Of a stretch of DNA of 64,000 nt, positions 5,810-18,570 are shown one piece after another. Numbering within the stretch: position 1 is the first letter of the stretch; each line of letters begins with the position of its first letter. The translations under genes were made by a program, and so were the position numbers. This stretch comes from Lutibacter sp. Hel_I_33_5 (GTDB lineage: Bacteria > Bacteroidota > Bacteroidia > Flavobacteriales > Flavobacteriaceae): contig NZ_VISM01000001.1 of the NCBI RefSeq assembly GCF_007827455.1, positions 1,465,501 to 1,529,500 on the forward strand, written 5' to 3'. A model generated the notes under the pieces. The model saw only the letters and a program-made list of their open reading frames with translations, made no database searches and was not told where the DNA came from.

Positions 5810-6994
5810 ATGAAAAAATTACCTACGCTTTTTATATCCAAAGGATATCATAAAAAAGAACATCTTATCATTATTAAATTTGATTATAATGAAAAGTTAA
5901 TTGCTCTTATAAAATCTATTAAAGGGATCCGATGGAGTCAGACTTTAAAAGCTTGGCATCTAAAAAACAATCCAGAAAACCTTCAAACTCTACACACTTT
6001 ATTTAAAGATATCACTATCATTGATAGTAGTCAGTTTTTTAAAAAACAAATCAACATTATTAAAAAGAATGAACCTATTAAGAGAAATTTAGATGCTACT
6101 CAAAAAGAGTTTTTAAATGATTTTTATAAGTATTTAAGAGGTAAACGATATAGTAAAAGCACCATGGATTCCTATACTTTTTATGTAGCCGATTTTATTT
6201 CTTTTTATCATAAGAAACCACTTTCTGAAATTAATAATAGGGATGTTGAAATCTATATAGAAACTATTTTTATTAAACGGAATTATGCTGTTAGTACCCA
6301 AAGACAATTTATAAGTGCTTTAAAAGTATTTATTGTCTTTTGTTCTACTACACAAATAAATAGTTTAGAACTGGTTAGACCAAAAAAGCATAGAAGACTT
6401 CCTAACGTTATATCACAAGAAGAAGTTTTAGATATTATACGTTTTACAAAAAACTTAAAACATAGAGCTGCTATCACTTTATTATATTCCTGTGGATTAC
6501 GGATTAGTGAGTTGATAAATTTAAAATTAAAAAATATTGATGTTGACAGAAAACAGTTACGAATAGAAAATAGTAAGGGAAGAAAAGATAGATATGTTAG
6601 TTTAGCTGATAGTTTTCTACCTTTATTCTCCAATTATTTTTATACGTTTTCTCCAATAAACTATTTTATTGAAGGAAAAGAAGGTGAAAAATATAGTGCA
6701 GAAAGTGTTCGACAATTTTTAAAACGAAGTTGTAAACTCGCAAAAATTAGCAAAGTAGTTACACCTCATACTTTACGACATAGTTATGCTACCCATTTAT
6801 TAGAAAATGGAGTTGATATACGCTATATACAATCTTTATTAGGGCATGCAAGACCAGAAACAACTATGATCTACACGCATGTAAAACGAAAGGACTTATT
6901 AGAAATTTCTAACCCTTTAGACATGGCGATTAAAAAAATAAAACAAACGGATAATAACAAAGCGAATGTTCTTTTATCCCGTAAATTAACATAA
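5810..6994 (+). CDS. Tyrosine recombinase (integrase) of the cassette array
   Basis: The 394-residue protein has the complete tyrosine recombinase set: R231, K256, H320, R323, H346 and nucleophile Y355 (motifs CGLRISEL, TPHTLRHSYATHLLENG, LLGHA, IYTHV). Residues about 92-185 form the SAM-like core-binding domain. Residues 1-75 are an additional N-terminal module (pattern IKGIRW..LKAWHL) not present in XerC/D or IntI. K256 to H320 spans 64 residues, close to XerD and about 40 shorter than in IntI1, so the IntI-specific insertion is missing. The gene points toward the attC-like sites and ends 31 bases before the first cassette junction, so it is the obvious candidate to recombine the cassettes. 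A TAAATTTG -7 element lies at 5785-5792. It could instead be a resident Xer-like protein; activity on attC is inferred. Confidence 0.85.
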   Translation: MKKLPTLFISKGYHKKEHLIIIKFDYNEKLIALIKSIKGIRWSQTLKAWHLKNNPENLQTLHTLFKDITIIDSSQFFKKQINIIKKNEPIKRNLDATQKEFLNDFYKYLRGKRYSKSTMDSYTFYVADFISFYHKKPLSEINNRDVEIYIETIFIKRNYAVSTQRQFISALKVFIVFCSTTQINSLELVRPKKHRRLPNVISQEEVLDIIRFTKNLKHRAAITLLYSCGLRISELINLKLKNIDVDRKQLRIENSKGRKDRYVSLADSFLPLFSNYFYTFSPINYFIEGKEGEKYSAESVRQFLKRSCKLAKISKVVTPHTLRHSYATHLLENGVDIRYIQSLLGHARPETTMIYTHVKRKDLLEISNPLDMAIKKIKQTDNNKANVLLSRKLT

Positions 6995-7033
6995 TAAATC
7001 CATATATTTGATTGGATATAACTAGTTGTACCC
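6995..7033 (+). other. Putative attI-like primary recombination site
   Basis: Directly after the recombinase stop there is a core site at 7025-7033 (G then TTGTACCC) whose right half pairs perfectly with the end of the first cassette (TGGGTACAAC at 9285-9294). Only the G and the sequence to its left belong to the platform. No large inverted repeat is seen on the left side, as expected for attI rather than attC. A TATATTTG (-7 type) at 7003-7010 could drive the first cassette, but a good -33 element is not visible. Confidence 0.6.
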
Positions 7034-7118
7034 AATTAACCCAAGCAACAACTTCCCTACTCAAATTCGACTAAATGCATTGAAATTCTGAAATAAAAGC
7101 AAGAATGTTTTTTTATTT

Positions 7119-7139
7119 CTAACCGATTGTTTAGTTTTG
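7119..7139 (+). promoter_or_regulatory. Operator 1 overlapping the promoter of the TetR gene
   Basis: CTAACCGATTGTTTAG at 7119-7134 matches the reverse complement of operator 2 (7737-7756) at 15 of 16 positions and overlaps TAGTTTTG (7132-7139), a perfect TAnnTTTG -7 element, 18 bases ahead of the TetR start codon. This placement suggests autorepression. Confidence 0.7.
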
Positions 7140-7156
7140 TTATGTAAATAGAAGCA

Positions 7157-7720
7157 ATGGCTCGAAAAAAAGAATATATTGAAGAAGAAGTTGTCGAAAA
7201 GGCAATGGATTTATTCTGGAAAAAAGGTTATGAAACAACTTCTATGCAAATGCTTGAGGAAGAAATGGGTATTAACAAGTTTTCTATTTACTCAAGTTTT
7301 GGCAATAAAAATGGGCTCTTTGTAGCTGCAATGAAACTTTATAGAAGAAAATTAGGAGAGATAACCAATAAATTAAAATTTTCAGACAATGGTGTTACTG
7401 GAATAAAAGAATATTTCTATGATTTTATTCCTTTTTCACATGACAAAGGACATTGTAAAGGGTGTTTAATAACTAACACTGCTAACGAAGTCAATAAAGA
7501 TGCAAACCAATTGATTTTGACGGAAATCGAAAAATTTAGTATTGAAATTAGACAGTTATTTTTAAGTAACCTTAAACAACATCAAAATAAAGATGAAAAA
7601 ACTATTGAAAATCAAGCTGATTATTTATTAATATCTATGATTGGATTGGCTACTGCATCAAGAATATGTAGTGAGACTCAACTTCATAATTATATAGAAA
7701 ACACATTTAATAGACTATAA
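7157..7720 (+). CDS. TetR/AcrR-family transcriptional regulator (cassette A)
   Basis: The 187-residue protein has an N-terminal helix-turn-helix at about residues 28-50 (SMQMLEEEMGINKFSIYSSFGNKNGLF) typical of TetR regulators, and a helical ligand-binding C-terminal domain with a Cys-containing CKGCLITNTANE segment as in the YcdC/TetR_C-type group. It probably represses itself and the two downstream genes, because two near-identical operators lie immediately before its own start and before the next gene. The inducer is unknown. It is the first gene of the three-gene cassette A. The start is the ATG after operator 1. Confidence 0.88.
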   Translation: MARKKEYIEEEVVEKAMDLFWKKGYETTSMQMLEEEMGINKFSIYSSFGNKNGLFVAAMKLYRRKLGEITNKLKFSDNGVTGIKEYFYDFIPFSHDKGHCKGCLITNTANEVNKDANQLILTEIEKFSIEIRQLFLSNLKQHQNKDEKTIENQADYLLISMIGLATASRICSETQLHNYIENTFNRL

Positions 7721-7736
7721 AAAAAATTTAATCAAT

Positions 7737-7756
7737 AACTAAACAATCGTTTAGTT
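7737..7756 (+). promoter_or_regulatory. Operator 2 (palindrome) before the membrane protein/SDR pair
   Basis: AACTAAAC-AATC-GTTTAGTT is a perfect 8+8 bp inverted repeat around 4 bases, overlapping a TAGTTTTA -7-like element, 17 bases before the ATG at 7773. Its resemblance to operator 1 makes it the probable target of the cassette-encoded TetR regulator. Confidence 0.75.
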
Positions 7757-7772
7757 TTAAACAACAAATGAA

Positions 7773-8456
7773 ATGAAAAAATCAAACAAAAAAATTGGAG
7801 CAATTGCATTAATCTTAGGAGCGTTTTTAAATATGATAAGAATGATACCAATATACTTAGAGGTTGGTATTACGGGTTATCCACCTAAAGACTTGTCTGA
7901 AACTATTCTAATAGCACAAACTAACGGATACTATATATCTCATACAATGGTATATTTTGCCACCCCATTATTTTTGCTTGGTTTTTACACTTTATATCAA
8001 GAACTTAAAAAGCGTACATCAAATAAGTTGCTTACTTTATCTCTTATAGTTTTTTTCATAGGGCAATTATTTTATACGATAGGTGTAGTCTTACACGGCT
8101 TGGTATTACCAGAAATGGCTCACGAATATATTGTCGCTTCAGTTTCATATCAAAATACTATGACGCCACTCTTTGAAGTCATACACCATATGGCAACAAG
8201 TTATGGTGGACTTGGGTTTGCGTTTTGTTTATTAAGTACTGGAATTTTAGGGTTTTATCTACGACCAAAATTTAAAATATTGGGTATCACTGCAATCGCT
8301 TTAGGGTTTTTAGCACTACTTGGATATAGTACAGGCACTTTAGCTATCTTATTATTCAAGAACTTTGAACTTACAGCAGGATTTATAACAGTCCTTTTCG
8401 TGTTCTATTTTGCAACAGGAATCACAATGTACAAATCATCAGTATTTAACGATTAA
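7773..8456 (+). CDS. Integral membrane protein of unknown function (cassette A)
   Basis: The 227-residue protein has about six hydrophobic segments (around residues 8-28, 52-72, 82-104, 127-150, 155-185 and 190-215) and no catalytic motif that I recognise. It looks like the DUF4386-type small membrane proteins but I cannot assign it firmly. It lies between operator 2 and an SDR gene, which starts 13 bases after its stop, so the two genes are probably one TetR-controlled transcript. A role in the response to a small hydrophobic compound would fit but is only an inference from context. Confidence 0.7.
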   Translation: MKKSNKKIGAIALILGAFLNMIRMIPIYLEVGITGYPPKDLSETILIAQTNGYYISHTMVYFATPLFLLGFYTLYQELKKRTSNKLLTLSLIVFFIGQLFYTIGVVLHGLVLPEMAHEYIVASVSYQNTMTPLFEVIHHMATSYGGLGFAFCLLSTGILGFYLRPKFKILGITAIALGFLALLGYSTGTLAILLFKNFELTAGFITVLFVFYFATGITMYKSSVFND

Positions 8457-8469
8457 AGAACTAAATAAC

Positions 8470-9276
8470 ATGAATAACTTAAAAAACAAATACGGAACCA
8501 AAGCTTTAGTGACTGGAGGTTCTTCTGGAATGGGAAAAGCTTTTGCTAATGAGCTTGCTAAACAAGGAATAGAGCCTATATTAATAGCAAGAAGTATAGA
8601 TAAACTAAAAGAAACGGCAAAAGCTATTTTTGAAGAACACAATGTTAAACCTCAAATATTCTCAGTTGATTTATCAGATGAAAATGCAATAAATAAATTT
8701 TTATCTGAAATTGAAAATCAGTCAATCGGATTACTAATTCATTGCGCTGGAATGGAAAATAATGGGAGTTTTCTCAAAATCAATGAAGGCAAGGAATTGC
8801 AAATGATAAAACTTAATGTTACATCTACTTATCTGTTAACAAATCACTTTGCGAGAAAAATGGCTAAAATTAAGAAAGGTGGTATTCTATTAGTATCAAG
8901 TATGGCTGGACTAATGGCAACACCGTATTTCAGTAATTATGCAGCAACAAAATCCTATGTTCATAATTTAGGACTTTCTTTATATCCTGAACTTAAAATG
9001 CATAATGTAGACATAAGTGTTCTTGCACCTGGATTAACAGAAACTAATATGGTTGCTGATAATGGAATTGATTGGTCAAAACTGCCTATGAAAAGTATGA
9101 AACCATCAGAAGTTGCTTTAATAGCATTAAATAACCTTGGAAAAAAAGGAACAATAATCCCCGGATTTATGAACAAAATGATGGTCTTTATGGCTAAAAG
9201 AGTTTTTTCTATTAAAGGATTTAGTAAAATGAATGGCTGGATGATAAGAAAAGCAATTTCAAACAACAAAATCTGA
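8470..9276 (+). CDS. Short-chain dehydrogenase/reductase (cassette A)
   Basis: The 268-residue SDR begins at ATG 8470 (MNNLKNKYGTKALVTGG). An upstream in-frame start at 8410 would lie inside the preceding gene and add 20 residues before the Rossmann fold, so it is not used here. The cofactor motif is TGGSSGMG at about residues 14-21. The SDR catalytic Ser and YxxxK are in LLVSSMAGLMATPYFSNYAATKSY. It most resembles the DltE/YqjQ type of classical SDRs acting on a carbonyl or alcohol substrate with NAD(P)H; the substrate is unknown. It is the last gene of cassette A, with its stop 8 bases before the attC-like site. Confidence 0.88.
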   Translation: MNNLKNKYGTKALVTGGSSGMGKAFANELAKQGIEPILIARSIDKLKETAKAIFEEHNVKPQIFSVDLSDENAINKFLSEIENQSIGLLIHCAGMENNGSFLKINEGKELQMIKLNVTSTYLLTNHFARKMAKIKKGGILLVSSMAGLMATPYFSNYAATKSYVHNLGLSLYPELKMHNVDISVLAPGLTETNMVADNGIDWSKLPMKSMKPSEVALIALNNLGKKGTIIPGFMNKMMVFMAKRVFSIKGFSKMNGWMIRKAISNNKI

Positions 9277-9284
9277 AAAATAAC

Positions 9285-9417
9285 TGGGTACAACAATGTA
9301 TAAAAGCAATAGCGGTTTGGGTGTATGCTCGAGCCGCTCTTACATTTAATTAATTATCTTGCTGCTCGAATGGTAAGTGTGTTAAATCCGCTACTTCTCT
9401 TATACTAAACGTTGGGC
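9285..9417 (+). repeat. attC-like site A
   Basis: R'' TGGGTACAAC (9285-9294) pairs with the start of cassette A at 7025-7034. The left arm continues ATGTATAAAAGCAATAGCGG and the right arm (about 9387-9410) is its imperfect complement, ending at R' GTTGGGC (9411-9417), which is the start of cassette B. The arms differ by several unpaired bases, as in folded attC sites. Its middle differs from the other sites: it lacks the shared CCTACTTACGAAA block and instead has its own inner stem. Confidence 0.8.
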
Positions 9418-9422
9418 GCAAT

Positions 9423-10154
9423 ATGAAAATGACTGATAAAACGAGTAACTTCTTATTTTATAGTGGACTAATTCTACTTGCAGTCGGAGCTTTTGGACTG
9501 ACTTTCGCTTCGTTCTTTGCAATAATCGGATTACCAATTTTTGTAGTTGGAATTATTTTGATTTTAGTTTCTAAAAAGACTTGGAAACAAAGATTAATAC
9601 CAATCGGACTTTTCATTATCGGAATAATTGCTTTTTGGCCAATTTGGAGAAGTATTAATACTGTCGGACCAGAAACCTTCTTAATACCAAATGACTATAG
9701 AGGAAGAGTTAATATAATTCACAAAAAAGATTGCGGAATCTTACTCGATAGAACGGAAAATGGACTGATTTATGAAATCCCAAATGACGGAATTTTACTG
9801 TTGACTAATGACCTAAAATATGGCTTAATCGACCATAATTATTACTTAATTGACAAAAACGGAAAGAAAACTGAATTACCGAAAATGGATGTCAGAGATT
9901 TTAATGAAGAATGGACAACCGAAAAAAATCCTAATGAACCACCAAGAGACAAACTCGGAGTTTTTCATTGGGGACGAACAGGAAGTACAGGAATTATAAG
10001 AGACGAAAATGGAATTGCGACAAACGAAGATGAACAATACTCATTTTTAGAATTTTACGTTTCTACTTATAGTGACTTGACTGAAAAGTTTAATTTTAAA
10101 TATGAACGGAAATTTGACACGATAAGAGATATTAAAGTAAAAAAATGCGAATAA
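9423..10154 (+). CDS. Membrane protein of unknown function (cassette B)
   Basis: The 243-residue protein has three closely spaced N-terminal hydrophobic segments (about residues 10-30, 32-48 and 55-72). A soluble part of ~165 residues with many charged residues and beta-prone stretches follows. I do not recognise a family. The gene starts 5 bases after the R' core of site A and ends 7 bases before R'' of site B, so it fills cassette B completely. Codon choice (many GGA, CGA, AAC and GAC) looks different from the flanking chromosomal genes, which suggests acquisition from elsewhere. Confidence 0.7.
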   Translation: MKMTDKTSNFLFYSGLILLAVGAFGLTFASFFAIIGLPIFVVGIILILVSKKTWKQRLIPIGLFIIGIIAFWPIWRSINTVGPETFLIPNDYRGRVNIIHKKDCGILLDRTENGLIYEIPNDGILLLTNDLKYGLIDHNYYLIDKNGKKTELPKMDVRDFNEEWTTEKNPNEPPRDKLGVFHWGRTGSTGIIRDENGIATNEDEQYSFLEFYVSTYSDLTEKFNFKYERKFDTIRDIKVKKCE

Positions 10155-10161
10155 ATACTGT

Positions 10162-10297
10162 GCCCAACACCTTACAAAATTAATTGCTTTGTTTCTAGCC
10201 TACTTACGAAAGTCCTCGAGGACTTTCTTGGTTAGTTTTTTATTTAGTAAATTCTTTTCTTAACCACAGCAACTAATCTTGTACAAACACGTTGTAC
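10162..10297 (+). repeat. attC-like site B
   Basis: R'' GCCCAAC (10162-10168) is the exact complement of GTTGGGC at 9411-9417. The arms TTACAAAATTAATTGCTTTG and CAGCAACTAATCTTGTACAA (10266-10285) are complementary with a few mismatches. R' GTTGTAC lies at 10291-10297. The centre holds a perfect 20-base palindrome GAAAGTCCTCGAGGACTTTC at 10208-10227, which would form the terminal hairpin of a folded strand. Confidence 0.85.
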
Positions 10298-10314
10298 ACC
10301 ATTAACCAAAACCA

Positions 10315-11610
10315 ATGAAATATATTAAATCATTAATTGCAATAACTTTTTTTATAACCTCAATCTGTAGTGCACAATTTAGTTTTGACAATTATGCTCT
10401 GCATAATTTAAATGTCATTGATGTCAATTCAAAAAAGATTCTTAAAGATTATTCAATTGTAATCCACAATGGTTTAATTATAGATATTTTACCAACAAAG
10501 AATTTTATTGAGAACGATAGCACACATTCAATTAATCTAAAGAATAAGTTTGTTTTACCTGGTTTAATAGATGCTCACGTACATTTTGCGACAGACCCAA
10601 CTGAAGAAAGAAGAGATAATGCTGAAAAAGTTCTGAAAGAAATGCTTTTAACAGGAGTTACTTCAGTTAGAGACATGGCTGGTGATACAAGAGCTCTTTC
10701 TAACCTTTCAAGAAACACTTTAGTTGGAGATATTGATGGTCCAAACATTTATTATTCTGCTTTAATGGCTGGTCCAGATTTTTTTGCTGACCCAAGAACT
10801 ATAGCAACAGCACAAGGAGGTATAAGTGGGAAAATGCCTTACATGAAAGCTATTGATAGTACCTCAAATTTAACTTTGGAAATTGCACAAGCAAGAGGTA
10901 CTGGTGCAGCTGGAATAAAATTATATGCAAATTTGTCAAGTCGAGAAATTAATAATATTGTAAAAGAGGCTAAAAATCAAGGTATCAATGTCTGGGCTCA
11001 TACTGCTTTAATGCCAACAAAACCATCTGATATAATAACTTCTGGAGTAATTTCCGTGTCTCATGTAGATATGTTGCTTTATGAATACTTTAAATCGAGA
11101 AAAGAACTAGTCGACAAATGGACAATTTCTGAAAATAACACAAAAAGCAGTAACTATTGGGATGATGAATTTAAGAAACTTGACTTTTCAGAATTGTACC
11201 AATTAATGATTGATAACAAAGTGGTTCTTGATGCTACAATGACGGTCTATGAAAAATATAAAGATAGACCTAAATATACTTGGCGATTTGAAATTGGAAA
11301 GCGAATTACAAACCAAGCCTATAAAAAAGGAGTTTTAGTAGCAGCTGGAAGTGATTCTGACCAAAAAACGTTTGTTCAACATGAGATGAAATTATTAGTT
11401 AATGAATGTGGTTTTAGTCCTTTTGAAGGAATTGTTGCAGCAACCAAAAATTCTGCAATGGCTACTGGAATTTTAGAAACAGAAGGCACAATTGAAAATG
11501 GAAAAAAAGCTAATTTACTTTTATTGAATTCAGACCCAACAAGCGATATAGAAAACATAGATAATGTTTTTATGGTAATCAAAAACGGTAAACTTTATAA
11601 TCCAAAATAA
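10315..11610 (+). CDS. Secreted amidohydrolase (cassette C)
   Basis: The 431-residue metal-dependent hydrolase has an N-terminal signal peptide (residues 1-20). The metal-binding HxH is His88/His90 in PGLIDAHVHFA, a candidate carbamylated Lys is Lys202 (AGIKLYA), and further ligands are His229 (WAHTAL), the His of SHVDML and the Asp of AAGSDSD. This is the imidazolonepropionase-like / Xaa-Pro dipeptidase branch of the amidohydrolase superfamily. The substrate is unknown; export to the periplasm is inferred from the signal peptide. The gene fills cassette C: its ATG is 18 bases after R' of site B and its stop lies one base before R'' of site C. Confidence 0.9.
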   Translation: MKYIKSLIAITFFITSICSAQFSFDNYALHNLNVIDVNSKKILKDYSIVIHNGLIIDILPTKNFIENDSTHSINLKNKFVLPGLIDAHVHFATDPTEERRDNAEKVLKEMLLTGVTSVRDMAGDTRALSNLSRNTLVGDIDGPNIYYSALMAGPDFFADPRTIATAQGGISGKMPYMKAIDSTSNLTLEIAQARGTGAAGIKLYANLSSREINNIVKEAKNQGINVWAHTALMPTKPSDIITSGVISVSHVDMLLYEYFKSRKELVDKWTISENNTKSSNYWDDEFKKLDFSELYQLMIDNKVVLDATMTVYEKYKDRPKYTWRFEIGKRITNQAYKKGVLVAAGSDSDQKTFVQHEMKLLVNECGFSPFEGIVAATKNSAMATGILETEGTIENGKKANLLLLNSDPTSDIENIDNVFMVIKNGKLYNPK

Positions 11611-11654
11611 CGGTGTACAACAAAGTACTGTGGTAAAAAACAAGTAAAAACTCA

Positions 11655-12626
11655 TTAAATATTCACTAAAGTACTTCTATAAGTATCATCATATATTAAT
11701 CCTGATTTAGCAATGGCAAATGCTTGTTTTAATAGTTTATTACACACCGCTATTAATGCTAATTTTTTACTCTTTCCTTTGGCAACTATTCGTTCATAAA
11801 TTTCTCTACAAGCCTTGTTGTATTTACAAGCATTAAAACTGCACATAAATAATAAATTTCGAAGCTTCTGGTTGCCTATTTTACTTATTCTGGCTCGTCC
11901 ATTTATACTACTTCCACTTTGTCTAATTACAGGAGTTAATCCAGCATAACTACACAATTCACTTCCGCTTTTAAAACGATCAAATCCATCTGTTAAAACA
12001 ACTAGCATTAGCGCTGTTTTATTTCCAATTCCAGGTATTGTTTTTAAGCGTGTTAAAACATCTTGATGTAGCTTTCTTACTAAAATTAATAATGCTGCTT
12101 CTACCTTTTCTATTTGTTTTGTTACCTGTCTCAAACTACTTTTTAATGAGCTCGTAACTACTTTACTTGGATTGCCCAAAACTTCTTCTCCATGTATTTT
12201 GTTTTTTAACATAGTACTCTGTTTTGTATACACAGAAAGAAGTCTTGTCATTTGTAAGCATTCTAACTGATGTTTTGAATTACCTTGCCATAACTTTAAT
12301 TCAACTTGTTTTGCATACTCACAAATCAATCTTGAATCGCTTTTATCTGTCTTTATTTTTGATAACTTCATCTGGATAAAGCGTTTCACCGACAGAGGGT
12401 TTTCTACTGAAACTTTTATACTGTTTTCCTGTAAAAAATAAGCCAACCTGTAATGGTAATAACCTGTAGCTTCCATTACACAATGACTATTGTAATCTAG
12501 ATGTTTTACAAATTTTTTAAATCCAGTTACATTGTTTTTAAACTGATAGTAATTACCAGAAGAATCTGTAACATCAAATACTAAATGACTAATGTCTATT
12601 CCAAAATATTTAATATCTTTATTCAT
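11655..12626 (-). CDS. IS110-family transposase (DEDD recombinase), copy 1
   Basis: The 323-residue protein has an N-terminal RuvC-like DEDD domain with candidate catalytic residues Asp11 (GIDIS), Glu52 (MEATGYY), Asp94 and Asp97 (KTDKSDSR), then a coiled linker. The C-terminal Transposase_20 domain has the helix-hairpin-helix-like IPGIGNKTA and the serine-containing VIRQSGSSINGRARISKIGN around residues 232-251, where the catalytic Ser of this family lies (Ser239 or Ser240). Family members use a structured RNA from the element end to recognise donor and target DNA. Full length and intact, so probably active. Confidence 0.95.
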   Translation of the reverse strand: MNKDIKYFGIDISHLVFDVTDSSGNYYQFKNNVTGFKKFVKHLDYNSHCVMEATGYYHYRLAYFLQENSIKVSVENPLSVKRFIQMKLSKIKTDKSDSRLICEYAKQVELKLWQGNSKHQLECLQMTRLLSVYTKQSTMLKNKIHGEEVLGNPSKVVTSSLKSSLRQVTKQIEKVEAALLILVRKLHQDVLTRLKTIPGIGNKTALMLVVLTDGFDRFKSGSELCSYAGLTPVIRQSGSSINGRARISKIGNQKLRNLLFMCSFNACKYNKACREIYERIVAKGKSKKLALIAVCNKLLKQAFAIAKSGLIYDDTYRSTLVNI

Positions 12627-12851
12627 AAGAAAATGTTTTAACGAAAGGACAACCTACGCAAGTTTCAACGACTTAAAATCGAGGTCTGAAGCCTCATAAA
12701 ACTGTACGAAATCTGTGTAGAAAAGAGAGGGGATTTTCAATGTTGACGAGATCAATAGTCTCTCCGTATATAATAACCTTAATCCTCTCTTCTGTGCTTT
12801 CTAATTTATATTGCTTAATTTAACCTTTTTATTAAAATGCTAACTTAAGAC
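12627..12851 (-). ncRNA. Putative bridge RNA region of IS copy 1
   Basis: The 225 bases upstream of the transposase form the long non-coding end, the location of the bridge RNA in IS110-group elements. Read on the minus strand, 12781-12789 (GAGAGGATT) pairs with 12725-12735 around an internal loop; a smaller GAGG/CCTC hairpin lies at 12681-12695. One side of the loop is ATTATATAC (12766-12774), close to the attC arm ATTATACAC. The other side is CAACATTG (12738-12745), close to the attC segment CAACAATG. This is what a target-binding loop with left and right guides would look like. The rest of the 366-base gap to the next gene is attC-like site C. The call is by position and folding by eye only. 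Confidence 0.55.
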
Positions 12852-12992
12852 GTATAAAATTAATTGCTTGTTTCGAGCCTACTTACGAAAATCCTCGCGG
12901 ATTTTCTATTAGGTTTGTACTTGCAAAGTTAGTTACTAAACCACGCAACTAATCTTATACAAGACCGTTAGCTACAATTAAAAACAAACATT

Positions 12993-13865
12993 ATGAAAAA
13001 TTCAATTAAACTTTTAGGACTACTTATTTTCTCTTTGATTTGGAATATTACCAATGCTCAAGTCAAAATGAACATTGAATTTGACACACCTTATGGAGAA
13101 AATGAAACAGTTGGGAATTATATCACAATAGATGGAGCAAAAATTTATTATGAGGAATATGGAAAAGGCGAACCATTATTACTTATTCACGGAAATAGTG
13201 GTAGTATTAAATCAATGGGTAATCAAATAGATTATTTCAAATCAAAATATAGAGTAATCATAGCTGACAATAGAGGACAAGGAAAATCTGAATTAAAAAC
13301 AGATTCTTTGACATATGTTCAAATTACAAAAGATTGGGAAGGAATAGTTAATCACTTAAAATTAGATTCTATTAATATTATTGGATGGAGTGATGGTGGA
13401 ATTATTGGATTGAAGATGGGAATTTCAGGTAAATCAAAAATTAAAAAAATTGTAGCGATGGGAGCTAATTTGAGACCTGATTCAACAGCTGTTAACTCTT
13501 GGGCAGTTAATTACGTTTTGAAATCCAAAAAGATGGTTGAGTTAAAAATTCAGGAGCACGATACTACTCGAAATTGGAACTCACAAAAACAACGTCTCGG
13601 ACTATTGGGGGACCAGCCAAATATCCCAATTAAAGACTTGTCAAAAATTAAAGCAAAAGTATTAATAATGTCTGGAGATGAAGATATAATTAAAAGTAAA
13701 CATAGTTTAGAAATATATGAAAATATTCCCAAAGCTCAATTATGCATAATGCCGGGCGAAACACATTATACACCTGCATCTAATCCAGAATTATTTAATG
13801 AAATTGCGAATAGATTTTTATCAAAAACATTTAAAAGACCTGATTCTGATTTTACAAAATGGTAG
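12993..13865 (+). CDS. Secreted alpha/beta hydrolase (cassette D)
   Basis: The 290-residue protein has a signal peptide (residues 1-23, ending NITNAQ) and an alpha/beta hydrolase fold: oxyanion HGNSGS, nucleophile elbow GWSDGG with the catalytic Ser, the acid in SGDEDIIK and the His in PGETHYTPAS. It probably hydrolyses an ester or related bond in the periplasm; the substrate is unknown. The gene fills cassette D, with its ATG 18 bases after R' of site C and its stop 8 bases before R'' of site D. It is flanked on both sides by direct copies of the IS, each inside an attC-like site. Confidence 0.88.
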   Translation: MKNSIKLLGLLIFSLIWNITNAQVKMNIEFDTPYGENETVGNYITIDGAKIYYEEYGKGEPLLLIHGNSGSIKSMGNQIDYFKSKYRVIIADNRGQGKSELKTDSLTYVQITKDWEGIVNHLKLDSINIIGWSDGGIIGLKMGISGKSKIKKIVAMGANLRPDSTAVNSWAVNYVLKSKKMVELKIQEHDTTRNWNSQKQRLGLLGDQPNIPIKDLSKIKAKVLIMSGDEDIIKSKHSLEIYENIPKAQLCIMPGETHYTPASNPELFNEIANRFLSKTFKRPDSDFTKW

Positions 13866-13915
13866 AAATAACTGTAGCTAACAAAGTACTGTGGTAAAAA
13901 ACAAGTAAAAACTCA

Positions 13916-14887
13916 TTAAATATTCACTAAAGTACTTCTATAAGTATCATCATATATTAATCCTGATTTAGCAATGGCAAATGCTTGTTTTAATAGTTTA
14001 TTACACACCGCTATTAATGCTAATTTTTTACTCTTTCCTTTGGCAACTATTCGTTCATAAATTTCTCTACAAGCCTTGTTGTATTTACAAGCATTAAAAC
14101 TGCACATAAATAATAAATTTCGAAGCTTCTGGTTGCCTATTTTACTTATTCTGGCTCGTCCATTTATACTACTTCCACTTTGTCTAATTACAGGAGTTAA
14201 TCCAGCATAACTACACAATTCACTTCCGCTTTTAAAACGATCAAATCCATCTGTTAAAACAACTAGCATTAGCGCTGTTTTATTTCCAATTCCAGGTATT
14301 GTTTTTAAGCGTGTTAAAACATCTTGATGTAGCTTTCTTACTAAAATTAATAATGCTGCTTCTACCTTTTCTATTTGTTTTGTTACCTGTCTCAAACTAC
14401 TTTTTAATGAGCTCGTAACTACTTTACTTGGATTGCCCAAAACTTCTTCTCCATGTATTTTGTTTTTTAACATAGTACTCTGTTTTGTATACACAGAAAG
14501 AAGTCTTGTCATTTGTAAGCATTCTAACTGATGTTTTGAATTACCTTGCCATAACTTTAATTCAACTTGTTTTGCATACTCACAAATCAATCTTGAATCG
14601 CTTTTATCTGTCTTTATTTTTGATAACTTCATCTGGATAAAGCGTTTCACCGACAGAGGGTTTTCTACTGAAACTTTTATACTGTTTTCCTGTAAAAAAT
14701 AAGCCAACCTGTAATGGTAATAACCTGTAGCTTCCATTACACAATGACTATTGTAATCTAGATGTTTTACAAATTTTTTAAATCCAGTTACATTGTTTTT
14801 AAACTGATAGTAATTACCAGAAGAATCTGTAACATCAAATACTAAATGACTAATGTCTATTCCAAAATATTTAATATCTTTATTCAT
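13916..14887 (-). CDS. IS110-family transposase (DEDD recombinase), copy 2
   Basis: The product is identical in all 323 residues to the copy 1 transposase, with the same candidate residues Asp11, Glu52, Asp94, Asp97 and Ser239/240. The gene is intact and begins at the same ATG, followed upstream by the same 225-base non-coding end. Insertion at the same attC position as copy 1, but in a site with a different core sequence, indicates that the target is recognised through the conserved arm rather than the variable core bases. Confidence 0.95.
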   Translation of the reverse strand: MNKDIKYFGIDISHLVFDVTDSSGNYYQFKNNVTGFKKFVKHLDYNSHCVMEATGYYHYRLAYFLQENSIKVSVENPLSVKRFIQMKLSKIKTDKSDSRLICEYAKQVELKLWQGNSKHQLECLQMTRLLSVYTKQSTMLKNKIHGEEVLGNPSKVVTSSLKSSLRQVTKQIEKVEAALLILVRKLHQDVLTRLKTIPGIGNKTALMLVVLTDGFDRFKSGSELCSYAGLTPVIRQSGSSINGRARISKIGNQKLRNLLFMCSFNACKYNKACREIYERIVAKGKSKKLALIAVCNKLLKQAFAIAKSGLIYDDTYRSTLVNI

Positions 14888-15112
14888 AAGAAAATGTTTT
14901 AACGAAAGGACAACCTACGCAAGTTTCAACGACTTAAAATCGAGGTCTGAAGCCTCATAAAACTGTACGAAATCTGTGTAGAAAAGAGAGGGGATTTTCA
15001 ATGTTGACGAGATCAATAGTCTCTCCGTATATAATAACCTTAATCCTCTCTTCTGTGCTTTCTAATTTATATTGCTTAATTTAACCTTTTTATTAAAATG
15101 CTAACTTAAGAC
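14888..15112 (-). ncRNA. Putative bridge RNA region of IS copy 2
   Basis: This is the same sequence as the copy 1 region, with the guide-like segments at 15027-15035 and 14999-15006. The remaining part of the 371-base gap (15113-15258) is the right part of attC-like site D and the short leader of the cassette E gene; I see no other gene there. Confidence 0.55.
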
Positions 15113-15258
15113 GTGTATAATTCATTGCTAGTACTCGCCTACTTACGAAAATCCTCGCAGATTTTCTATTCGGTTTATATTTGCTAATTTAGTTGCTGAA
15201 ACACGCAACGAAATCATACACAAACACGTTGTGCTTCATTATAACCAACAGCTAACCT

Positions 15259-15984
15259 ATGATAAAATTCTTTAGAAAAATTAGACAAAAACTGCTAACT
15301 GAAAATAAGTTTAGCAAATATCTGATTTACGCAATTGGAGAAATCATACTTGTCGTTATTGGAATTTTGATTGCGCTTCAGATTAATAATTGGAATGAAC
15401 ATCGTAAAACAGCTAAAGAACTACAAAGTTACTATCAACAAATACTAATTGAAATCAATCAGGAAAAACAGTATATAGATAGAGAATTATATAGACTTAA
15501 TAAAAGTATTGCAACTTACGAAGCTTATACAGAATATATTAAAAACTCTGAATTAAAACCTAATGAAATAATTCAGGAACTTGGAAAAATTGAATTAACA
15601 TTTTCATATTTAACTTTTAGCAATGAAACAATAACTTCGTTAGAGACAACTGGAGAGATAAAGTTAATTCCAGAAAGTATAAGAAATAAACTAATTGAAT
15701 CTAAAAGACTTAAAGAAGTACTTATTAGTCAACAAGCTGGAAACGACCAATTGTATTTAGAAGGGCAGAAAAAGGCTTTTGAGCTTGGTTTTAATAGACT
15801 TTTAAAATATACAGAACCTTATCAAGGGATTAATGTTAATAGAAATACTACGGAAATAATCTTAACTCTTGAATATGCTTTCGGACTTAAAAACTATACT
15901 GAAAATGATAAGATTAGAATGCTAAATGGTTTGTTAGAAAATATTATGGAATTAGAAGCAATGATTAGAAAAGAACAAAAATAA
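15259..15984 (+). CDS. DUF6090-type membrane-anchored protein (cassette E)
   Basis: The 241-residue protein begins IKFFRKIRQKLLTENKFSKY and has one membrane helix at about residues 22-42 (AIGEIILVVIGILIALQINN). A helical, probably coiled-coil domain extends to the end. This N-terminal pattern is characteristic of the DUF6090 family, abundant and multi-copy in Flavobacteriaceae and without known function. It is a single-gene cassette: the ATG is 24 bases after R' of site D and the stop 7 bases before R'' of site E. Orientation with a short N-terminal cytoplasmic basic segment is inferred from the charge pattern. Confidence 0.85.
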   Translation: MIKFFRKIRQKLLTENKFSKYLIYAIGEIILVVIGILIALQINNWNEHRKTAKELQSYYQQILIEINQEKQYIDRELYRLNKSIATYEAYTEYIKNSELKPNEIIQELGKIELTFSYLTFSNETITSLETTGEIKLIPESIRNKLIESKRLKEVLISQQAGNDQLYLEGQKKAFELGFNRLLKYTEPYQGINVNRNTTEIILTLEYAFGLKNYTENDKIRMLNGLLENIMELEAMIRKEQK

Positions 15985-15991
15985 ATAACGA

Positions 15992-16125
15992 AAGCACAAC
16001 AATGTGTATAATTCATTGCTAGTTAAAGCCTACTTACGAAAGTCCTCGCGGACTTTCTATCTGTGATTTATTTGCTAAATTTAGTGCTTAAACACGCAAC
16101 GAAATCATACACTAGACCGTTAGCA
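15992..16125 (+). repeat. attC-like site E (intact)
   Basis: R'' AAGCACAAC (15992-16000) pairs with GTTGTGCTT at 15228-15236. The left arm GTGTATAATTCATTGC (16004-16019) pairs with the right arm GCAACGAAATCATACAC (about 16096-16112) with a few mismatches and extra bases. The centre has the CCTACTTACGAAA block and the perfect palindrome GAAAGTCCTCGCGGACTTTC (16038-16057, allowing the CGCG core). R' GTTAGCA lies at 16119-16125. This is the best intact reference for the interrupted sites C and D. Confidence 0.88.
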
Positions 16126-16145
16126 AAAATTTAAAACCAACTGAA

Positions 16146-16658
16146 ATGAACAAAATAATTCTAACATCATTAAGCATAATTTTTGCTTTTAATTCAATTT
16201 TCGGGCAGACGAACGAAGATAAATATGCGAAAGATGTGCAATCAATAGATGCAATAATTAATGCATATTATGATGTTGTTTCAGGTTCGAGTAGTGACCC
16301 TTGGGAATTCGAAAGAGATAAATTTATTCATTCAGAAAATGCTGTAATCACAAGATTGGACGAAAATGGAAAAGCGGAATCGCATAGTCTTGAAGCGGAA
16401 TATATACCAATCGGATTATCACCGAAAGAGGATTTTTACGAAAAGGAACTTAAAAGAAAAGTGAGCAAATACGGAAATATTGCACAAGTTTGGAGTGCAT
16501 TTGAAATACGAACTGACCCAAATACGGAATCTAATATTAGAGGACTGAATAGCGTTCAACTTCATTACGAAAATGGAAGATGGTGGATAGATAGTTGGAC
16601 TTGCGAAATGGAATCTGAAAAAAGTTCTGTGGTGACTGAATTTATGAAGAATGAATAA
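16146..16658 (+). CDS. Secreted NTF2-like protein (cassette F)
   Basis: The 170-residue protein has a signal peptide (residues 1-20, ending SIFGQ). The body (AINAYYDVVSGSS, then VWSAFEIRTDP, ending LHYENGRWWIDSWTCEME) follows the cone-shaped NTF2/SnoaL-like fold pattern, in which the closing strands NGRWWIDSW are typical. No catalytic residues can be assigned; a periplasmic ligand-binding or enzymatic role is possible. The codon pattern (GCG, CGA, ACG) is unlike the neighbours. The gene occupies cassette F alone, ending 6 bases before R''. Confidence 0.8.
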   Translation: MNKIILTSLSIIFAFNSIFGQTNEDKYAKDVQSIDAIINAYYDVVSGSSSDPWEFERDKFIHSENAVITRLDENGKAESHSLEAEYIPIGLSPKEDFYEKELKRKVSKYGNIAQVWSAFEIRTDPNTESNIRGLNSVQLHYENGRWWIDSWTCEMESEKSSVVTEFMKNE

Positions 16659-16676
16659 AAAAACTTTTGCTAACAA

Positions 16677-17262
16677 AGTACTGTGGTAAAAAACAAGTAA
16701 AAACTCATTAAATATTCACTAAAGTACTTCTATAAGTATCATCATATATTAATCCTGATTTAGCAATGGCAAATGCTTGTTTTAATAGTTTATTACACAC
16801 CGCTATTAATGCTAATTTTTTACTCTTTCCTTTGGCAACTATTCGTTCATAAATTTCTCTACAAGCCTTGTTGTATTTACAAGCATTAAAACTGCACATA
16901 AATAATAAATTTCGAAGCTTCTGGTTGCCTATTTTACTTATTCTGGCTCGTCCATTTATACTACTTCCACTTTGTCTAATTACAGGAGTTAATCCAGCAT
17001 AACTACACAATTCACTTCCGCTTTTAAAACGATCAAATCCATCTGTTAAAACAACTAGCATTAGCGCTGTTTTATTTCCAATTCCTGGTATTGTTTTTAA
17101 GCGTGTTAAAACATCTTGATGTAGCTTTCTTACTAAAATTAATAATGCTGCCTCTACCTTTTCTATTTGTTTTGTTACCTGTCTCAAACTACTTTTTAAT
17201 GAGCTCGTAACTACTTTACTTGGATTACCCAAAACTTCTTCTCCATGTATTTTGTTTTTTAA
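16677..17262 (-). mobile_element. IS110-family element, copy 3, truncated
   Basis: The sequence matches copies 1 and 2 from the left end to 17262, where homology stops abruptly inside the transposase gene. Only about three base differences from copies 1 and 2 are visible. The lost part includes the 5' half of the transposase and the whole non-coding end that would encode the bridge RNA. Confidence 0.88.
16708..17262 (-). pseudogene. IS110-family transposase fragment (5'-truncated)
   Basis: This fragment encodes the last ~183 residues of the transposase (from LKNKIHGEE to the C-terminus), including the Transposase_20 domain with SGSSINGRARISK. The DEDD domain is absent, so it cannot be catalytically active. 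The open frame runs on to 17325, but those extra ~20 codons come from the attC-like right arm and do not resemble transposase. The fragment could still be mobilised or recombined by the complete copies. Confidence 0.9.
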
Positions 17263-17401
17263 TAAATTGCTTACTTTTAGCATAACATAAACGCAACAAA
17301 GCTTATACCAAACCGTTGTGCCCAATTAAAAAATTCCGTTTCATTAGATAATTCAGAATAAATGATTGTATCTTTGATAGTATCAAATGATATTATCATA
17401 A

Positions 17402-18355
17402 ATGAAACCACCCTATAAAATAACATCTTCTATTTTAAAATTAATAACTTCTATTTCAGAAAAAATAGGAGAAGTAAATGCTAATTTATTAAACAGACCT
17501 TCACCTAAATTGAGAAAACAGAATAGAATCAAAACTATTCATTCTTCTTTGAAAATAGAAGGAAACACACTATCAGTAGAGCAAATAACAGCACTTCTTG
17601 AAAACAAAAGAGTTATTGGTCCTAAAAAAGATATTCTTGAAGTTTTAAATGCAATTAAAATCTATGAAAACTTAGAAGATTATAATCCTTCAAATGAGAA
17701 ATTCTTTTTAAAAGCACATCAAAACTTAATGGAAGGTTTAATTGAAAATTCTGGAAAATATAGAAATCAAAGTGTCGGAATTGTAAAAGGCTCAAAAGTT
17801 GAGCATTTAGCACCACCTTTTGAAAATGTTCCATACTTAATGAAAGACCTTTTTGAATATTTGAAAAAGTCTGATGAAATTGAATTAATTAAAAGTTGTG
17901 TTTTCCATTACGAAATGGAATTTATACATCCATTTTTGGATGGAAATGGTAGAATGGGAAGATTATGGCAAACTTTAATTTTAATGGAAAAATATCCAAT
18001 CTTTGAATTTTTGCCTTTTGAAACTCTAATCTGTAAAGACCAGGAAAAATATTATAAATCTTTAGCTGAGAGTGATAAATCAGGAAAGTCAACTAATTTT
18101 ATTGAATATATGCTAAACGTTATTGATATTTCAATAAGTGAACTATTAGATTTCAATAATCGAACGTTAAATGAAAAAGATAGATTAGACTATTATGTTT
18201 CATTAAATAAAACTGAATTTACAAGAAAAGATTATATGGATATTTTTAAAGATATTTCTTCATCAACAGCAAGTAGAGATTTAAAGAAAGGAGCTGAATT
18301 GGATTTATTTGAAAAAATAGGAAAAAAAAATAAGACAATCTATCGTTTAAAATAA
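17402..18355 (+). CDS. Fic-domain protein (cassette G)
   Basis: The 317-residue protein has the Fic motif HPFLDGNGRMGR at residues 176-187 with catalytic His176, the phosphate-binding Asn182 and both Arg residues. A typical inhibitory motif, Ser49-LKI-Glu53-Gly54, lies N-terminal to the Fic core (class II arrangement). The C-terminal ~60 residues look like a winged helix. Fic proteins transfer AMP (or other nucleotide moieties) from nucleotides to a target hydroxyl; with the N-terminal helix the protein would be self-inhibited and need no separate antitoxin. The target is unknown. It is the only gene of the last cassette, with its stop 1 base before R'' of site G. A TATCATA-type element lies just before the start. 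Confidence 0.93.
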   Translation: MKPPYKITSSILKLITSISEKIGEVNANLLNRPSPKLRKQNRIKTIHSSLKIEGNTLSVEQITALLENKRVIGPKKDILEVLNAIKIYENLEDYNPSNEKFFLKAHQNLMEGLIENSGKYRNQSVGIVKGSKVEHLAPPFENVPYLMKDLFEYLKKSDEIELIKSCVFHYEMEFIHPFLDGNGRMGRLWQTLILMEKYPIFEFLPFETLICKDQEKYYKSLAESDKSGKSTNFIEYMLNVIDISISELLDFNNRTLNEKDRLDYYVSLNKTEFTRKDYMDIFKDISSSTASRDLKKGAELDLFEKIGKKNKTIYRLK

Positions 18356-18356
18356 C

Positions 18357-18490
18357 TGGGCACAACAACATATATAATATATTGCTGTTTCTAGCCTACT
18401 TACGAAAATCCTTGCGGCTTTTATTTGTCAGTAATTATTTACTAAATTAGTTGCTGAAACACGCCACTATCATACACAAAAACGTTAAAG
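18357..18490 (+). repeat. attC-like site G (distal end of array)
   Basis: R'' TGGGCACAAC (18357-18366) pairs perfectly with GTTGTGCCCA at 17315-17324. Left arm ATATATAATATATTGCTG, the CCTACTTACGAAA block, a decayed palindrome (18404-18422) and the right arm ACGCCACTATCATACAC lead to R' GTTAAAG (18484-18490). No complementary CTTTAAC was noticed downstream, so the array ends here. Confidence 0.8.
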
Positions 18491-18570
18491 TACATTAAAA
18501 ATTGTTAGTTTATAAGGGAAATCAAATCAGTTGTGTTTTTCGTTAGAAAACTTTCCACTATTTTTGCCTT

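Follow-up and report, generated by a model that had tools for sequence, protein, structure and literature searches.

The 64-kb window analysed here, positions 1,465,501-1,529,500 of the 3.10-Mb single-contig genome of the marine bacterium Lutibacter sp. Hel_I_33_5, contains an intact gene for a XerA/IntI-like tyrosine recombinase followed by seven gene cassettes on the same strand, each closed by an attC-type repeat. Very probably, this locus functions as an integron: a chromosomal platform for cassette capture, driven by a recombinase from a lineage distinct from IntI. The sequence tests show the build of an integron, integron-like function is most likely, and the locus stands outside the IntI-defined family.

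Own-end pairing, cassette borders and the attC hairpin

In an integron, the circular cassette joins its 5' start to its own 3' box, so that these two sequences pair; in the array they stand apart. Of the 70 positions in the first 10 nt of the seven window cassettes, 68 paired with the cassette's own 3' box and 32 with the physically adjacent boxes. Five cassettes paired with their own box at all ten positions and two at nine, and in a permutation test only the observed order (1/5040) reached 68/70. Stretches fetched around 40 related recombinase genes (E <= 1e-60) made up, with the window, a set of 41 sequences. An attC profile, seeded with six window sequences and then iterated, detected 277 attC in 38 of them. 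Pairing of at least 9/10 was found with the own box in 184 of 220 cases, versus 10/250 within the same attC, 7/185 with the next-but-one box and 3.1% of 5360 random pairs. When 15 named loci of Polaribacter, Tenacibaculum and relatives were added (56 sequences), the profile found 330 attC in 49 sequences, and own pairing at this level was seen in 223/265 versus 10/304 in the same-attC control. The 16 stretches that were fetched later and stood outside profile building, one of them without a site, gave 48/65 versus 2/77 in the control. Dinucleotide-shuffled loci (813 kb) yielded one profile match at E <= 0.1. For the pairing counts, and for the polarity count given below, each locus was turned to the strand with the majority of hits and the opposite-strand hits were dropped: one among 271 in the relatives' stretches, and one in a named locus (L104) that overlapped another hit. 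No attC was found in 4 of the 40 relatives' stretches (one search round) and in 4 of the 15 named loci, mostly where a contig end lies close behind the gene.

To judge from the sequence, the match between own start and own box is the footprint of circular cassettes. The same test bears on another explanation, in which dispersed intergenic palindromes, such as REP-like or terminator repeats, mimic attC. Single sites are indeed scattered in this genome too, but such palindromes would leave both the own-end pairing and the sharing of cassettes with exact borders unexplained. We rejected this explanation, whose probability we regard as negligible, because each start box fits the box one gene downstream and not its partner in the same repeat.

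The cassettes also appear as units in comparisons between loci. The earlier note on this DNA had placed the cassette borders at the GTT cores and named borders elsewhere in related strains as evidence to the contrary; in the between-species form of that comparison the placement held, with cassettes common to different species starting at GTT and ending at R''. Cassette 7 (Fic-like) is 92.7% identical from GTT to R'' to a cassette of Tenacibaculum aquimarinum K20-16, and the flanks are unlike. Among the directed homologous hits between loci, 20/26 started no more than 2 nt from a called GTT; six of the 26 had no called GTT in the partner and did not enter the pair set. The 12 unique shared pairs, which represent five cassette families, had an identity of 0.85 over the first 100 nt inside the cassette. 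It dropped to 0.63 in the attC immediately before the cassette and to 0.61 in the next cassette, with a baseline of 0.60 for unrelated ones. Of 265 cassettes, 244 had their longest open reading frame on the cassette strand and 15 on the opposite strand; six had none. Relatives of Shedu, AbiGi and DNA methyltransferases were among the families listed in a sample of 100 of the 232 cassette proteins, where the listings covered the first 25, and the cassette genes are adaptive-looking.

The folding of the repeats was analysed in a 60-site alignment, made from 57 of 63 candidates (six were dropped) and three further window sites, with four sites from the window in all. The candidates were picked for an E-value below 1e-7 and a box spacing of 95-140, which favours regular structure. 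RNAalifold on the bottom strand gave 21 pairs, with the R helix on the outside, the L helix on the inside and, between them, a 5 by 2 internal loop; 14 of these pairs had changed on both sides. Paired cells amounted to 94.5% versus 76.6 in shuffles, and the covariation score was 0.460 versus a shuffled mean of 0.143, with at most 0.114 for slid versions. G-T wobbles were found at columns 15/144 (59 of 60 sites), 33/130 (58/60) and 27/135 (44/60), and those at 15/144 and 33/130 would become A-C mismatches on the other strand. Predicted folding with DNA parameters made the bottom strand the stabler one in 165/167 sites in circle form and in 163/167 in array form, and the circle form was predicted to be stabler than the array form in 163/167. 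As for extrahelical bases, insertion column 29 was filled in a minority of the 60 sites.

The covariance-model search for attC that the earlier note had recommended, run with a model of these 60 sites, returned seven matches at E <= 1 in the window, all within 9281-18497 and one of them weak and partial. Rfam gave no family at the window repeats, and with one attC as BLAST query, phages yielded three matches, all weak and partial.

The recombinase and the attI-like site

The recombinase has 394 residues and matches PF00589 at 6.3e-41. Its domains follow the order of an N-terminal extension (about residues 1-95), a SAM-like core-binding domain and a catalytic domain. Arg231, Lys256, His320, Arg323, His346 and Tyr355, which we take to be the catalytic positions of a tyrosine recombinase, are invariant in all 30 aligned rows, the window included.

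By the accepted criterion the enzyme, as its sequence reads, is not an IntI: it falls outside the integron integrases because the IntI additional domain (roughly 42 residues) is absent. The full integron architecture described in the earlier note is thus retained for the layout and the cassette borders and not for the recombinase as an integron integrase. The alternative of a canonical integron with an ordinary but divergent IntI can cite IntI4 (2a3v) among the Protein Data Bank neighbours, a TIGR02249 match at 215.4 bits and the frequency of IntI in other parts of the phylum (84 of 296 genomes with a match over the cut-off, 86 matching rows). However, that score is below the cut-off of 265, and the match is split in two around the absent domain. 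In the alignment with 2a3v, residues 274-299 face chain residues 178-246, leaving a gap at the additional domain. The motifs KGxKxR and HxLRH could both be located in 25 of 29 relatives' loci, where they stand 64 or 65 residues apart, and in 24 of 30 canonical Bacteroidota IntI loci, where the spacing is 106. A tree of 53 proteins separated 25 of this kind from 26 IntI into distinct groups with supports of 97/96 and 100/99; its outgroup was two Xer-like proteins on long branches, whose joining is unsure. The TIGR02249 score, the motif distance and the tree grouping led us to reject a plain canonical integron, and a divergent IntI seems very unlikely.

The closest described relatives of this non-IntI enzyme are of the XerA type. 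NF040815 (XerA) is the best NCBIfam match, at 216.1 bits, and the XerA-type chain 5hxy is the best structural neighbour, with a continuous alignment and no large gap; IntI4 ranks behind two XerA/XerC-like chains. Unlike the XerA type, the window enzyme scores below the NF040815 cut-off of 220, is linked to arrays and an attI-like site, and has an N-terminal extension. Some relatives carry the NCBI label 'site-specific tyrosine recombinase/integron integrase', the same wording that describes the NF040815 model. The N-terminal extension bears a weak likeness to HARP (PF07443), the window piece scoring 16.3 bits against a gathering cut-off of 25. Across members, 4 of 28 matched HARP at E <= 1, with a best value of 6.3e-05; for the window piece an unrelated Lipocalin family matched better (0.0032), and SMARCAL1 (4o66) appeared at an E-value of 1. 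We speculate that this part of the protein may assist in holding hairpin or junction DNA, but recombinases without it (L168, L170 and L171) also adjoin arrays.

The polarity of the arrays was counted in 58 loci whose recombinase scored over 180 bits, taking the best recombinase per locus; six further loci had no such open reading frame. In these loci, mostly selected for likeness to the window locus, 376 of 377 counted attC were on the side where the cassettes point away from the recombinase gene. The gene itself lay on the cassettes' strand in 52 loci and on the opposite strand in six. As in classical integrons, transcription of the recombinase gene runs away from the array in L168, L170, L171, L175, L176 and L179.

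The GTT of the first cassette could be located in 48 of 56 loci by pairing of at least 9/10 with the first R'', taken as the best of several GTT in the stretch; a match of 9/10 in a long stretch can by itself arise by chance, and in one of the 48 the distance is 1908 nt. The attI-like assignment therefore rests on constant place and flank. Among 42 same-strand loci, 29 had the first GTT 30-46 nt past the last sense codon and 41 had it within 300 nt; in the consensus of these 41, TATATTT...ATATAACnA precedes the first core. On this comparison of loci an attI-like site adjoins the recombinase gene. A promoter (Pc) in this region was also considered. The element TAnnTTT[GA] was present in 22/41 loci versus a shuffled mean of 3.7 (maximum 9), and no upstream TTG was found at the tested spacing in any of them; the promoter claim was dropped because the upstream element was not found.

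We propose that two substrates would be bound by the recombinase, namely the attI-like site that directly follows its gene and attC hairpins folded from the bottom strand, and that it would cut beside the AAC/GTT core. Circular cassettes would be inserted at attI and excised by recombination between two attC, and the outcome would be oriented arrays pointing away from the recombinase gene. We infer that the adjoining recombinase would be the acting enzyme, that its substrate would be single-stranded, that the cut would fall at this exact place, and that the platform would be active today.

The resemblance to chromosomal integrons with IntI covers a tyrosine recombinase beside an attachment site, an oriented cassette array with GTT borders, attC hairpins with R and L stems parted by an internal loop, a predicted bottom-strand bias and an R'' complementary to the cassette's own start. 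In contrast to those integrons, the window recombinase is without the additional domain and many members have the N-terminal extension of about 95 residues; the recombinase gene lies on the cassettes' strand in the window, as in most counted loci, and G-T wobbles occur in the hairpin. Messier and Roy reportedly stated in the title of a 2001 paper that the additional domain is necessary for activity. An old question is now testable: whether the IntI domain is required for recombination of folded attC or is one of two solutions.

Distribution and contrary evidence

The platform is widespread on the sequence searches and not a local curiosity. A close recombinase relative (E <= 1e-60) was found in 93 of 199 Flavobacteriaceae genomes, and attC of this type (E <= 1e-3, with at most 15 candidates scored per genome) in 177 of the 199, including 92 of the 93 with a close recombinase. 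If so many Flavobacteriaceae carry this attC, a large share of the cassette pool has so far been hard to see. In the genus, 23 of 30 genomes yielded a family recombinase at E <= 1e-70, in some cases incomplete or interrupted by stop codons; one genome (G484) has two near-equal-scoring copies and a third with five stop codons.

In the phylum, attC of this type occurred in 93 of 296 genomes (E <= 1e-6). Eighteen attC-bearing genomes of other classes were hand-picked, and ten had a recombinase of this type (E <= 1e-50), on one contig with attC in at least five (G304, G234, G242, G249 and G365). Canonical IntI was absent from the 30 Flavobacteriaceae genomes in the phylum draw. Five genomes (G234, G287, G223, G249 and G481) have both a recombinase of this type and a canonical IntI, the latter on another contig. 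The attC model gave no match in the 30 canonical Bacteroidota IntI loci (about 110 kb, only about 1.5 kb on each side).

Mobile elements carry similar sites. On a plasmid of Chryseobacterium sp. SNU WT5 (L183, 11974-22102), a relative of the recombinase is followed by five attC matches with an IS110 element and a group II intron among them; own pairing reached 9 in one of four neighbours, with boxes taken at fixed offsets. A mobilizable plasmid of Flagellimonas marinaquae (L185, 9893-12813) has a dihydrofolate-reductase-family gene between two attC matches, with own pairing of 9. This cassette is divergent from a family recombinase, and erm(F) lies between the attC matches and the recombinase. 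Polaribacter phage P12002L (L182, 29998-39720) has nine attC-type matches among methyltransferase and small genes, and five of the eight neighbours reach an own pairing of 8 to 10; its genes run opposite to the cassette sense, which is odd.

It seems fairly probable that these loci represent a second integron lineage, in which cassettes would be captured on folded single-stranded attC by a clade in which the IntI additional domain, regarded as essential, was never present or is dispensed with. This lineage would be spread through Flavobacteriaceae and further Bacteroidota, would occur on plasmids too and sometimes beside canonical IntI in one genome, and would have kindred cassettes in a phage; it would have been missed because surveys search for that domain. 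An IntI-based tool would be expected to report no complete integron here because the additional domain is absent. CALIN is the label that an IntI-based survey would be expected to give these arrays, if their attC were found; unlike a CALIN, the array here has a linked recombinase gene and an attI-like site.

In the excerpts consulted, surveys find integrons via the IntI additional domain (PMC9668308, PMC8352920, PMC2426708), and integrons are known from Bacteroidota (PMC8618304, PMC9668308). For Bacteroidetes, a passage by the IntegronFinder 2.0 authors gives nothing beyond In0 from their previous study, followed by a single complete integron in Salinibacter ruber (PMC9024848). No description of such a system in Flavobacteriales was found in titles and abstract starts of the literature, most subscription papers and all preprints lying outside the scope.

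Several observations weigh against a working integron of this kind. In the hairpin alignment, two of five measures stood out less clearly from the shuffles: there were 14 double-change pairs versus 11.3 (reached by 6/500 shuffles) and 41 further pair types versus 36.1 (reached by 12/500). The R helix is almost invariant, three R-box pairs never vary, and conserved extrahelical bases of the classical-attC kind were not clearly seen in the 60 sites. The attC were also present in 85 of 106 Flavobacteriaceae genomes without a close recombinase. Of 20 attC-rich genomes hand-picked from these, 12 had a clear distant relative, one a partial one and seven only Xer-level matches, that is, as weak as the genome's second-best match. 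Several relatives' recombinase genes contain stop codons. An uncultured Polaribacter locus (L116, 10001-21155) has a family recombinase and no attC in the 10 kb behind the gene; the platform may be empty, or its array may be of a different type. The window genome encodes two more distant tyrosine recombinases, and three of the seven attC in the window are interrupted by IS110, so the array may be largely frozen. As a separate observation, one genome with only Xer-level matches (L177, G071) has twenty attC in 20 kb.

Some of these points would fit real cassettes that are moved in trans by XerC/XerD or by an IntI elsewhere, with the adjoining recombinase as a passenger. The two further recombinases of the genome are probably Xer-like, and the seven picked genomes with only Xer-level matches are rich in attC. 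According to an excerpt of PMC9892861, IntI1 recombined the predicted attC2 of phage P12002L, which may be one of the sites of the present type that this phage carries. A passenger gene would not account for arrays that start at a conserved site beside it and point away from it in nearly every case, on either gene strand, and this genome has no TIGR02249 match at E <= 1e-50. We give the passenger explanation only a slight chance.

A former integron that is now immobile in this strain, its array a relic, would agree with the IS110 elements in the attC sites and with the further attC clusters in the genome that have no adjoining recombinase. Against a relic stand the intact recombinase with its catalytic residues, the high identity of cassette 7 to a cassette in another genus and the own pairing of 9/10 or better in every cassette. 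We regard a relic as unlikely and favour the cassette-capture platform run by its own recombinase.

Locus layout and chromosomal setting

The features of the locus are given in Table 1. The recombinase gene and the seven cassettes of one to three genes reported in the earlier note were confirmed, with the open reading frame intact and the cores and boxes located. The repeats are imperfect inverted ones with complementary boxes, as that note described; their length of about 130 bases was revised, the four uninterrupted repeats measuring 144-150 nt with both boxes present. All seven sites were seen, with the correction that three of them carry IS110. The cassettes span 7025-18483, and 30 nt separate the recombinase stop codon from the first GTT. 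Cassette 1 has three genes and cassettes 2-7 have one each, IS110 not counted.

Table 1. Features of the cassette locus, in window positions. For cassettes, the GTT core given is the one at the cassette start; for attC, the one at the end of the site.
Feature	Positions	Strand	R'' box end	GTT core	Description
Recombinase gene	5810-6994	+			Tyrosine recombinase, XerA/IntI-like, 394 aa, intact open reading frame (open reading frame and family searches)
attI-like site	6991-7034	+		7025	TATATTTg...gATATAACtA, then GTT (consensus of 41 same-strand loci)
Cassette 1	7025-9410	+	9294	7025	TetR-family regulator (7157-7720), protein without Pfam family (7773-8456), short-chain dehydrogenase (8470-9276), attC1
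attC1	9281-9424	+	9294	9411	
Cassette 2	9411-10290	+	10168	9411	DUF6843 protein (9423-10154), attC2
attC2	10155-10304	+	10168	10291	
Cassette 3	10291-12966	+	11621	10291	Amidohydrolase-family protein (10315-11610), attC3 split by IS110
IS110-family element in attC3	11622-12853	-			Beside R'' box; transposase 11655-12626
attC3, right-hand part	12836-12980	+		12967	Covariance model
Cassette 4	12967-15227	+	13882	12967	Alpha/beta hydrolase (12993-13865), attC4 split by IS110
IS110-family element in attC4	13883-15114	-			Beside R'' box; transposase 13916-14887
attC4, right-hand part	15097-15241	+		15228	Covariance model
Cassette 5	15228-16118	+	16000	15228	DUF6090 protein (15259-15984), attC5
attC5	15987-16132	+	16000	16119	
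Cassette 6	16119-17314	+	16674	16119	Protein without Pfam family (16146-16658), attC6 with truncated IS110 copy
Truncated IS110 copy in attC6	about 16675-17262				
Cassette 7	17315-18483	+	18366	17315	Fic-like protein (17402-18355), attC7; also in Tenacibaculum aquimarinum array, L117:17395-18446
attC7 (array end)	18353-18497	+	18366	18484	

The IS110 elements occupy the same spot beside R'' in one orientation in all three interrupted sites. The two complete copies are identical over 1232 nt, and their outermost bases may be part of the target. IS1111-attC elements are IS110-family relatives that insert into attC. The placement here looks like a similar target choice for attC, at one place in the site; unlike in those elements, the insertion is beside R''.

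Two further attC clusters without an adjoining recombinase were seen in the same genome. One (G000:C1 2482310-2494698, L166) had own pairing of 9 or 10 in 4/5 cases, and the other (G000:C1 2953719-2958962, L167) had good own pairing in 0/3.

The chromosomal setting was compared with 27 other genomes of the genus in which lpd was found, viewing 1.5 kb on each side. In this view lpd lies directly beside pabB in ten genomes and beside the 18571 gene of the window in three, with pabB 1.3-1.5 kb further on in three others. Neither gene is in reach of lpd in 11 of the 27, including the seven with the most similar lpd. A fixed chromosomal home in the genus was considered and rejected, as no recombinase was found within 1.5 kb of lpd in any of the 27 genomes. 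In the window, the platform separates lpd from pabB and the 18571 gene; it was likely inserted here, between lpd and its former neighbours, because it parts lpd from genes that adjoin it in other genomes of the genus.

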